Positions 11,077 to 15,361 of a DNA stretch of 64,000 nt are shown in pieces. The notes under the pieces were generated by a model. The model saw nothing but the letters and a program-made list of their open reading frames with translations, was not told the DNA's origin and made no database searches. The translations under genes were made by a program, and so were the position numbers. Numbering within the stretch: the first letter of the stretch is position 1; each line of letters starts with the position of its first letter. The DNA comes from Candidatus Nitrosopumilus sp. Lineage in GTDB: Archaea > Thermoproteota > Nitrososphaeria > Nitrososphaerales > Nitrosopumilaceae. The stretch covers positions 1-64,000 of the forward strand of contig NZ_JAOULD010000002.1 in the NCBI RefSeq assembly GCF_029882185.1, written 5' to 3'.

Positions 11077-11640
11077 ATGAAATCAATCTCTGAAAATCCT
11101 GATTTTAACAATACTGAGACTGGAGAATTTCCTTGTATTTCATGTCATACAAATTGCTGTAAGGAATATGTCATATTTGTCAATGCTCACGACGTTTATC
11201 GTCTTGCTACTGGATTGAGGTTGGCACCTGAAAATTTTTTAGAAATTTATGGTGCAAAGGACTATTCTTTAGGAATTAACGTAAAAGAAGGCCTAATAGA
11301 TCTTGCATTAAAACAAAATAATGGCACATGTGAATTTCTTGAAGAGCATAAAGATTTCTTTAGATGTACCGTAAACGAAATCAAACCTGGAGTATGTAAA
11401 TCATATCCATTTGAAATGAAAAATGGAAAATTAATCCAGATGACTAGCATGATGTGTCCGGTAAATTGGAATATTGCAGAATTTGAAAAAATGATGATAT
11501 CTCATCTCAAAAAAGATGAATCTGAATGGAAGTTTTATGATGAACTTGTTAAAGAATGGAATACAAAACATTGGGGAAAATCATTATCTGTATTTTTGAA
11601 ATTTATGTTAGATAAAGTGAAATCTTCTCTGGCATCTTGA
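11077..11640 (+). CDS. YkgJ-type cysteine-cluster protein
   Basis: 187 residues. The N-terminal FPCISCHTNCCKEY carries the C-x2-C-x3-C-C cluster of the YkgJ/zinc-or-iron-sulfur family, with further cysteines at NGTCEFLEE, FRCTV and PGVCKSYPF that complete the metal site. Members of the family bind Fe-S or zinc and have poorly defined roles. A TATA-like motif precedes the ATG by about 30 nt. Monocistronic, divergent from the DCC protein. Confidence 0.85.
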   Translation: MKSISENPDFNNTETGEFPCISCHTNCCKEYVIFVNAHDVYRLATGLRLAPENFLEIYGAKDYSLGINVKEGLIDLALKQNNGTCEFLEEHKDFFRCTVNEIKPGVCKSYPFEMKNGKLIQMTSMMCPVNWNIAEFEKMMISHLKKDESEWKFYDELVKEWNTKHWGKSLSVFLKFMLDKVKSSLAS

Positions 11641-11738: not shown

Positions 11739-13406
11739 ATGGGGCTCAATTATTATCAAATTAAGAAAAATATTCTAAGGGCCAGAAAATTAGTCATTAA
11801 AGGAACTAATGCTGCTGGATCTGGTCATCCTGGGGGTTCTTTTTCCATGGCTGAAATATTGGGTTGTTTGTTTAACAAATATTTGAAATTTGATCCTAAA
11901 AATCCCCAATGGGAAGACCGTGATCGTTTAGTTCTATCAAAAGGACATGCTGCTCCTGGATTATTTTCTAACATGGCCGTTGCAGGGTATTTTCCAGAAT
12001 CTGAAATTGAAACGTTGAGAAAATTTGGCAGTAGGTTACAGGGGCATCCTGACCTGAAATGTCCTGGTGTAGAATTTTGTGGTGGTTCTTTAGGTACTGG
12101 ATTATCTTATTCTATTGGAATTGCACTGGCAGCAAAAATTGATTCTAAGAATCATCATGTCTATACGATTATTGGAGATGGGGAATCTGATGAAGGACAA
12201 GTTTGGGAGGCTGCAATGACTGCTTCAAAATACAAAGTTGATAATTTGACTGCTTTTCTTGATAGAAATTTCATTCAACAGGATTCATACACTGAAAAAG
12301 TCATGCCTCTTGATGAAAAATTGGAGGGAGATGATATATCTGAAATGTGGAAGGATGCATCGCGTTGGAAAACAGGTGATAAATGGCGTTCATTTGGTTG
12401 GAATGTGATTGAAATCAATGGACATAGAATAGAACAAATTGATGCAGCAATTGCAAAAGCAAATGCTACAAAAGGTGTGCCTACAATAATTATTTCTAGA
12501 ACAATAAAGGGAAAATCTGTAGAGCATATGGAAGACAATCCCCAATGGCATGGCAAAGCTCCTGATTCAGATGTTGTTCCCATAATTGATCTTGAATTGG
12601 ATTCACAATTCATGATTTCCCCATCAATCATTGCAGGTGATATGACAAATTTAGAAAATGAAATTAAACGATGCGTGTCAGGTAGAGCAGATTACATTCA
12701 TCTAGATGTGATGGATGGACAGTTTGTTCCAACAAAAACTTTTGATCATAACAAAATCAAAGAATTAAGACCTTTGACAGTAATTCCTTTTGATACTCAC
12801 TTGATGATCAATAATCCCGTGAGACATGTAAAAGACTACATCGATGCTGGCAGTGACATTATCACTGTTCATGCAGAAGTTACTGATGAATCTAGTTTTG
12901 GTGAAATTCATGATTTGTTAAAACAAAATCAAGTAGGTGTTGGTTTTTCAATAAATCCTGAAACTGAATTACCTGAATGGTCTTACAAATTTTTACCTTC
13001 TCTTGATCAGATAATTGTAATGTCTGTTGTACCTGGAAAATCAGGTCAAAAATACATTGAAGAAACACACACAAAAATGACTAGATTAAACTCTATTGTA
13101 AAGGAACATAATTTTTCAGGTTATATTGAGGCTGATGGGGGTGTTAATCTTGAAAATATTGGCTCTGTATTTGCTGATGGAGCAAGAGCTTTTGTTGGAG
13201 GTGGTGCCATTATTGGACAGCAAGATGTTAGAGCAGCCATTAAAGATTTTAGAACTGAGATATTGAAATCAAGAAGACGAATCTTACTTGAAAAAGCAAA
13301 TGAATTAGGTGGAATAGAATTGGTAAACAAATGGATTGGACTGCATGTAATTGGAGAAAAACAAGAACAACTCAAAAAAATTGCACATGAGGCAGGATAT
13401 CTTTGA
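11739..13406 (+). CDS. Transketolase N-terminal subunit fused to ribulose-phosphate 3-epimerase
   Basis: About 555 residues in one uninterrupted frame. Residues 1-285 are the thiamine-diphosphate half of a split transketolase (SGHPGGSFSMAE; GDGESDEGQVWEAA near 150; HGKAP). From about residue 292 (MISPSIIAGDM) to 505 the protein is a complete ribulose-5-phosphate 3-epimerase barrel with HLDVMDGQFVPTKTF, DTHLMI and EADGGVN, which hold the metal-binding His and Asp residues. A basic helical tail of about 45 residues follows. An internal ATG at 12612 sits exactly where a free epimerase would begin. Start 11739 (ATG) lies 27 nt after a TATA-like TTTTTATT; TTG 11733 is the alternative. Confidence 0.93.
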   Translation: MGLNYYQIKKNILRARKLVIKGTNAAGSGHPGGSFSMAEILGCLFNKYLKFDPKNPQWEDRDRLVLSKGHAAPGLFSNMAVAGYFPESEIETLRKFGSRLQGHPDLKCPGVEFCGGSLGTGLSYSIGIALAAKIDSKNHHVYTIIGDGESDEGQVWEAAMTASKYKVDNLTAFLDRNFIQQDSYTEKVMPLDEKLEGDDISEMWKDASRWKTGDKWRSFGWNVIEINGHRIEQIDAAIAKANATKGVPTIIISRTIKGKSVEHMEDNPQWHGKAPDSDVVPIIDLELDSQFMISPSIIAGDMTNLENEIKRCVSGRADYIHLDVMDGQFVPTKTFDHNKIKELRPLTVIPFDTHLMINNPVRHVKDYIDAGSDIITVHAEVTDESSFGEIHDLLKQNQVGVGFSINPETELPEWSYKFLPSLDQIIVMSVVPGKSGQKYIEETHTKMTRLNSIVKEHNFSGYIEADGGVNLENIGSVFADGARAFVGGGAIIGQQDVRAAIKDFRTEILKSRRRILLEKANELGGIELVNKWIGLHVIGEKQEQLKKIAHEAGYL

Positions 13407-14377
13407 ATGAACCAATAATGACTGACATGCGTTCAGAATATTCAAAATCACTAATTCAACTAGGAAAAGAAAATCCAAACATTGTTGTCTTAGGTGCAGA
13501 CACTACTGATTCACTTAAAACTTCTGGATTTGGGAAAGAGTTTCCTGATCGATTTTTTAATGTAGGTATTGCTGAAGCAAATCTTGTGACTATCTCAGCT
13601 GGATTGGCTGCGTCTGGAAAAACATCTTTTGCTAGTACTTATGCTATATTTCTACCTGGTAGAGCAGTTGATCAAATTCGAAACAATATTGCTTATCCAT
13701 CATCTCCTGGGAAAAAAGGTCTTAACGTAAAATTGGTTACTTCTCATGGTGGTTTGTCTGTAGGACCTGATGGTGGTTCTCATCAACAAATTGAAGATAT
13801 TGCAATTATGAGGGTCATTCCAAATTTTCGAGTTTTTATTCCTGCTGATACTGTTGCCGTTTCAAAACTAATTCGGTTAATGGCAAATGAATATGGTCCA
13901 TTTTACATGAGGATGGCAAGATCTGCAACCCCACTGGTTCATTCTGATTCTCAGGAATTTCAAATTGGAAAAGGAATTACAATGAGAGATGGCTCTGATT
14001 GTACCATTGTTGCATGTGGTACCACTGTCAGAATGGCTTTAGAGGCTGCTGAATCTTTACAACAAGAAGGAATTTCTTGTAGAGTTTTAGACATGTTTTC
14101 AATTAAACCCATTGATAATCAATTATTAGAAAAAACTGCTAGAGAAACTGGTTGTATTGTAACAACTGAGGAGCATAATATTATCGGTGGAATGGGTTCT
14201 GCAGTTGCAGAATCTATTTCTGAATCTTACCCTGTACCTATAAAGAGAATTGGAGCCCAAGATATGTTTGGAGAGTCTGCACGTGATAATGAAATTCCAT
14301 TACTCTTAGAAAAACACGGAATAACATCTTTTAATATGGCAAAACAAGTCAAAGAAATTAGGAGTAAAAAATTATGA
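13403..14377 (+). CDS. Transketolase C-terminal subunit
   Basis: 324 residues covering the pyrimidine-binding and C-terminal domains of a split transketolase (FNVGIAEANLVTIS with the catalytic glutamate near residue 55; SHGGLSVGPDGGSHQQIEDI; FYMRMARSATP). It pairs with the preceding fusion protein to move two-carbon units between sugar phosphates. The TTG at 13403 overlaps the upstream TGA and has GAGG ten bases before it, suggesting coupled translation; ATG 13418 is an alternative start. Overlaps transaldolase by 4 bp (ATGA). Confidence 0.93.
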   Translation: MNEPIMTDMRSEYSKSLIQLGKENPNIVVLGADTTDSLKTSGFGKEFPDRFFNVGIAEANLVTISAGLAASGKTSFASTYAIFLPGRAVDQIRNNIAYPSSPGKKGLNVKLVTSHGGLSVGPDGGSHQQIEDIAIMRVIPNFRVFIPADTVAVSKLIRLMANEYGPFYMRMARSATPLVHSDSQEFQIGKGITMRDGSDCTIVACGTTVRMALEAAESLQQEGISCRVLDMFSIKPIDNQLLEKTARETGCIVTTEEHNIIGGMGSAVAESISESYPVPIKRIGAQDMFGESARDNEIPLLLEKHGITSFNMAKQVKEIRSKKL

Positions 14378-15042
14378 AAATTTTTCTAGACACTGCTAAC
14401 CTTGAATCAATTAGAAAATTCAATGACATGGGACTGTTAGATGGTATTACCACCAATCCTTCACTCATGTCAAAAGAAGGCGGCAATCCAAAGGATGCAA
14501 TGGAAGAGATTACAAAAATTATCAAAGGTGACGTGAGTTTAGAAGTTGTTAGTACTGAATATTCTGGAATGATGGAAGAAGGTAAACGCCTTCGTCAATA
14601 TGGAGAAAATGTTGTAGTGAAAGTTCCTATGACTCCTGATGGTCTTAAAGCATGCAAATCTCTGTCATTTGAAGGAATTCCTGTAAATGTTACATTGATA
14701 TTTTCTGCAAATCAAGCTTTGCTTGCAGCAAAATCTGGTGCAAAATATGTTAGTCCATTTATTGGAAGATTAGATGATGTTGGACAAAATGGGATGGAAC
14801 TAATTAAAGAAATTAAAGAAATTTTTGATCATTATGACTATATAAAAACACAAATTCTTGTTGCAAGTGTACGTCATCCTTTACATGTAATTGATGCTGC
14901 AAAAATTGGTGCAGATGTTGTTACATTACCTCCTGCAGTTTTGGATAAAATGTTACAGCATCCTTTGACAAAAATTGGTTTAGAAAATTTCCTTGCTGAT
15001 TGGGACAAACTAAAGTCTGGAAATCCTGATATCGAAATATAG
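14374..15042 (+). CDS. tal: Transaldolase (small archaeal/FSA-like type)
   Basis: 222 residues, the short single-barrel form. MKIFLDTANL at the start, DGITTNPSLM, and VVVKVPMTPDG with the Schiff-base lysine at residue 83 identify it. It transfers dihydroxyacetone units between sugar phosphates. It is the third gene of a tightly overlapping operon, so transketolase, epimerase and transaldolase activities are made together for the non-oxidative pentose-phosphate pathway, which supplies ribose and erythrose phosphates. Confidence 0.94.
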   Translation: MKIFLDTANLESIRKFNDMGLLDGITTNPSLMSKEGGNPKDAMEEITKIIKGDVSLEVVSTEYSGMMEEGKRLRQYGENVVVKVPMTPDGLKACKSLSFEGIPVNVTLIFSANQALLAAKSGAKYVSPFIGRLDDVGQNGMELIKEIKEIFDHYDYIKTQILVASVRHPLHVIDAAKIGADVVTLPPAVLDKMLQHPLTKIGLENFLADWDKLKSGNPDIEI

Positions 15043-15088: not shown

Positions 15089-15361
15089 CTATTGTGATCC
15101 TTTGTTCCTGCTTCTTCTTGAACCAGTTCCTCTACCTGTAACTCTAGTCATTCCTTCTGTAGAAGGCCTATCTTTTGGATCAGGCATATCTCCTAGTTTT
15201 CTTGAACCAGTTCCTCTACCTGTGTGAACCATTTTTCCTGCTGCTGCTTTTTTTCTTGCTTCTTGGATCTTTCTAAATTCATCTCCAGACCATTTGGAAG
15301 CATCTTCATCCACTTCGATAGTTCCTGTGCCTCTACCTGTTCGTATTCTGATTTTGCCCAT
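15089..15361 (-). CDS. Small basic protein with three TGRGTG repeats
   Basis: 90 residues. The motif T-G-R-G-T-G occurs three times: near residues 8-13 (RTGRGTGTI), 47-52 (HTGRGTGSRK) and 75-80 (VTGRGTGSRR). The protein is rich in G, R and K and has no membrane segment or cysteine. Gly-Arg repeats of this kind suggest nucleic-acid binding, but no family is known to me. Preceded by a TATA-like stretch on the minus strand. Separate from the sugar-phosphate operon, which converges on it. Confidence 0.75.
   Translation of the reverse strand: MGKIRIRTGRGTGTIEVDEDASKWSGDEFRKIQEARKKAAAGKMVHTGRGTGSRKLGDMPDPKDRPSTEGMTRVTGRGTGSRRSRNKGSQ

Follow-up and report, generated by a model that had tools for sequence, protein, structure and literature searches.

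The fusion of a transketolase N-subunit (TktN) to a ribulose-phosphate 3-epimerase (Rpe) is already known, having been published in 2024: the report by Padalko, Nair and Sousa (mSystems, PMC11237513) records a TktN-Rpe fusion in 73 of 98 Thaumarchaeota assemblies as cluster 341.1, and also describes an archaeal Hps-Phi fusion. Both enzymes have counterparts that are separate proteins. The split transketolase of Carboxydothermus hydrogenoformans is an active alpha2-beta2 tetramer that requires both chains, with the PP domain on one and the Pyr and C domains on the other (6yak, PMC7661550), and the free epimerases 2fli, 1rpx and 3ovp are complete barrels on chains of their own.

We analysed a 64,000-nucleotide stretch of archaeal DNA, referred to here as the window, in which both enzymes are encoded by one gene at the head of a short operon, with the following features:

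11739-13406 (+): fused gene of 555 aa, split-transketolase N-subunit (thiamine/PP domain), ribulose-phosphate 3-epimerase and tail (open frame, Pfam; intact in about 175 related genomes)
11739-12578 (+): transketolase N (PP) domain, residues 1-280 (Pfam, alignment, 6yak match)
12579-12611 (+): junction of about 11 residues (comparison with relatives in which tktN ends and rpe starts as a separate gene)
12612-13253 (+): ribulose-phosphate 3-epimerase barrel, residues 292-505 (Pfam, alignment, 2fli match)
13266-13403 (+): C-terminal tail, residues 510-555, fusion-specific (alignment, model, tail profile, Pfam)
13403-14377 (+): split-transketolase C-subunit (tktC; Transket_pyr and Transketolase_C), starting with TTG and sharing 4 bases with the fused gene (open reading frame, Pfam)
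14374-15042 (+): gene of the transaldolase/fructose-6-phosphate aldolase family (tal), TIGR00875 over cut-off, overlapping tktC by 4 bases (open reading frame, profiles)

The fused gene is a single uninterrupted frame with an ATG start, although a TTG two codons upstream is compatible too. Its Pfam matches are to Transketolase_N at residues 13-278 (E 3.6e-48) and to Ribul_P_3_epim (PF00834) at residues 293-492 (E 8.3e-51), each well above its cut-off, and the latter domain is complete, since the match spans model positions 2-198 of 198. The epimerase assignment scored 172.6 bits against a cut-off of 21.1 for PF00834 and 188.8 against 165 for NF004076, with TIGR01163 at 181.2 falling under its cut-off of 212.6; scores for the allulose-6-P epimerase and Hps models were far under theirs, which speaks only indirectly for ribulose/xylulose 5-phosphate, and against an allulose or hexulose phosphate, as the substrate. 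For the transketolase part, the best solved match was the split-transketolase N-component 6yak (E 1.8e-72), and the hallmarks of such a subunit are present, including the TPP-binding GDG...N motif, the catalytic histidines and a separate C-subunit encoded nearby, so that by its sequence features this part is a normal split-chain N-subunit. In an alignment of 25 fused proteins, namely the window protein and 24 others that are 47-92% identical to it, H30, H70, H103, D147, N177 and H263 of the transketolase half and H321, D323, H354 and D466 of the epimerase half are invariant. By analogy with the two families, we take the latter four to be the metal and catalytic residues of the epimerase, and the transketolase-half residues to include the catalytic histidines. 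The initial annotation had read the frame as a complete N-subunit followed from about residue 292 by an epimerase and a tail, with the C-subunit and transaldolase overlapping downstream, and both readings agree with these results.

Directly upstream of the operon lies a gene for a CxxCxxCC putative zinc/iron-chelating family protein (11077-11640, +; Pfam), and on its other side a frame on the opposite strand (15089-15361, -) is predicted to encode a basic 90-aa protein with three TGRGTG repeats, for which no Pfam family scored over cut-off.

A predicted structure of the fused protein (mean pLDDT 88, pTM 0.90) contains both folds, the model aligning with 6yak over about 283 columns (TM-score 0.87 by target) and with 2fli over about 222 columns (TM-score 0.93 by target). 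As in the Carboxydothermus enzyme, the PP domain is on a separate chain from the Pyr and C domains, and its N-subunit is 46% identical to the N half of the window protein by structure alignment; unlike the window protein, it carries neither an epimerase nor a tail. The free epimerases 2fli, 1rpx and 3ovp have the same metal and catalytic residues at 34-36% identity to the window protein, and as separate chains they lack the fusion-specific tail. The fused gene does not differ in kind from cluster 341.1: the enzymes are the same, TktN precedes Rpe in one frame in both, and the host likewise belongs to the Thaumarchaeota (Nitrososphaeria). The two sentences on the fusion in PMC11237513 describe neither the tail nor the unfused operon nor the single origin presented below. 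The archaeal Hps-Phi fusion from the same source likewise joins consecutive enzymes of ribose synthesis, but these are other enzymes of another route, and a profile search of the window's genome gave no hexulose-phosphate synthase (Hps) over the curated cut-off.

We then examined how widely the joined frame occurs by checking the open frame around every strong PF00834 match listed for 250 genomes of the class, with counts made by hand. Strong epimerase matches occurred in 141 genomes of family f1 and 34 of family f3, and in each of these 175 the match lay in an uninterrupted frame at least 501 aa long; in families f2, f4, f5, f7, f12, f16 and f17, epimerase matches lay in frames of 212-294 aa. 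Families f1 and f3 are probably Nitrosopumilaceae and Nitrososphaeraceae, and f2 may be Nitrosocaldaceae. Among the matches listed, named fused loci were labelled Nitrosopumilus, Nitrosopelagicus, Nitrosotalea, Nitrososphaera, Nitrososphaeraceae and Nitrosopolaris, and the nearest named relatives include Nitrosopumilus sp., which is 92-96% identical in both domains. None of the 80 epimerase loci listed showed a fusion outside Nitrososphaeria, in line with the earlier statement that the two enzymes are normally separate, and the search for the two-domain architecture proposed in the initial annotation found it at every strong match in two families of the class, with separate epimerase frames in the other families named above. 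A sequencing or assembly frameshift that joined two adjacent overlapping genes has practically no probability in our judgement: a single indel would suffice to join genes with the ATGA overlaps seen in unfused relatives, but about 175 genomes from two families, each assembled separately and some of them single-contig, have the two genes joined in the same way. This recurrence refutes an artefact, and both junction and tail are conserved across the fused genomes.

Viral (IMG/VR) contigs L136-L168 carry genes resembling split transketolase N, mostly together with C and often adjoining it; these are about 30-44% identical in the N part and may be other split thiamine enzymes, and none of the 34 loci with transketolase-N-like genes showed an epimerase fusion. 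In an f7 genome, a full-length single-chain transketolase-like gene (L048:5544-7508, -) lies beside separate rpe and tal genes, in contrast to the split form of its relatives.

The nearest unfused relatives are families f2, f4, f5 and f12, in which tktN, rpe and tktC, with tal where the locus extends that far, are adjacent and in that order but separate genes. The tktN stop and rpe start share an ATGA overlap in f5 and in f2 g21, and are a few bases apart in f4. The window junction, ELDSQFMISPSII, aligns with the end of f5 tktN (KEELGL*) followed by the start of f5 rpe (MSIKIAPSIL), with no extra linker relative to these unfused ends. Archaeal amoA is present in the host's own genome and in f2 and f5, and was not found in f4 or f12; judged by this gene, f2 and f5 are ammonia oxidizers, yet unfused. 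One f2 epimerase (L006:1405-2241, -) has a long serine-rich stretch ahead of the barrel, where the sister group has its fusion point.

In a tree of concatenated TktN, Rpe and TktC sequences (38 rows, 821 columns), with the root placed on f4 and f12 by choice rather than inferred, every fused protein falls on one side of a branch with 100/100 support, corresponding to one change of state. The simplest history is a single fusion after f2 and f5 had split off, in which a small indel joined two genes that overlapped or abutted. The fused clade sits on a long branch of 0.35 changes per column, and the proteins may therefore have changed fast around the time of fusion.

All sampled fused proteins extend 35-46 residues past the epimerase, about 46 in the window protein, with an invariant W532 and a common L..A..L pattern. 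In the structure model, the last barrel helix is prolonged (497-534) and followed by a second helix (541-552), with block pLDDT values of 86-96. The tail had no Pfam match, and a profile built on it, searched against 14 genomes, matched G000, G003 and G109, all fused, with no meaningful E-value in the unfused genomes of that set; it also missed G070, a divergent fused f3 genome, and is thus limited in reach. Two candidate sources of the tail were rejected: unfused TktN stops about 15-20 residues past the WHG/YHG motif, arguing against a displaced TktN end, and epimerases of unfused sister families end with the last barrel helix or shortly beyond it, so that it is not an ordinary epimerase C-terminus. 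From these comparisons we take it as having been gained with the fusion or soon afterwards; our guess is that it packs against the transketolase half or alters the oligomeric state.

The initial annotation had also raised the possibility that the internal ATG at 12612 allows a separate epimerase to be made; such an enzyme would carry the tail and exist alongside the fused protein. The codon is ATG in 12 and TTG in 2 of the 14 f1 sequences sampled, window included, but it is CTT, CTA or TTC in 8 of 11 f3 sequences, with ATG in the other 3, and a separate product is therefore not general. Moreover, no purine-rich, ribosome-binding-like stretch precedes 12612 in the window, and Met or Leu would also suit the first barrel strand, which begins with hydrophobic residues. 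We consider the additional product improbable.

Taken together, the comparisons point to a real, ancient and conserved fused protein that is very probably bifunctional, and the preferred reading, which we hold with high confidence, is of an ancestral operon, one tktN-rpe fusion and a bifunctional protein kept since. The ancestral order would have been tktN-rpe-tktC-tal, serving the non-oxidative pentose phosphate pathway, and a single loss of the tktN/rpe boundary, in the last ancestor shared by Nitrosopumilaceae- and Nitrososphaeraceae-type ammonia oxidizers, would have produced the bifunctional protein. Its N half would combine with the separately made C-subunit into a split transketolase like the alpha2-beta2 Carboxydothermus enzyme, and its C half would be a functioning epimerase and the sole one in the genome, where a profile search gave a single PF00834 and a single PF00456 match, both inside the fused frame. 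Flux in these autotrophs would run toward ribose, with both transketolase steps releasing xylulose 5-phosphate that the fused epimerase would convert to ribulose 5-phosphate. Since ribose-5-phosphate isomerase (RpiA) is present in the genome and no Hps reaches its cut-off, as noted above, ribose 5-phosphate can be made by this pathway with fructose 6-phosphate and glyceraldehyde 3-phosphate as its starting compounds. We infer both activities, the tetramer, the flux direction and the fixed ratio as a benefit; in the open literature we found no enzyme assay, proteomics or other biochemical paper on the fused protein.

That the fusion fixes a 1:1 ratio, as had been proposed, follows directly from the single frame; adjacent overlapping genes already yield near-equal expression, however, so that the gain from fusion is putative. 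Local coupling of the two active sites, or channelling of xylulose 5-phosphate from one to the other, is possible and chemically sensible, but channelling with a geometry set by the tail seems to us rather unlikely. The confident overall arrangement of the model, the linker-free junction and a conserved tail seen only in fused proteins would all suit it; on the other hand, the transketolase site is complete only with the C-subunit, the model is of the fused chain alone, and joining consecutive enzymes does not in itself mean channelling. We accordingly offer only as a speculative idea that fusion and helical tail might form a fixed assembly passing xylulose 5-phosphate locally, acquired once in the ancestor of most ammonia-oxidizing archaea.

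To the published fusion, our analysis adds the pre-fusion operon, a single origin, the fusion-specific tail and the limit of how far the fusion extends among ammonia oxidizers. The locus is a clean example of two adjacent operon genes merging into one, and sister ammonia oxidizers still have the arrangement that preceded the merger. Nature thus provides both versions, so that what is gained by joining enzymes of successive pathway steps is directly testable. The finding also speaks for the non-oxidative pentose phosphate pathway being complete in these abundant autotrophs.
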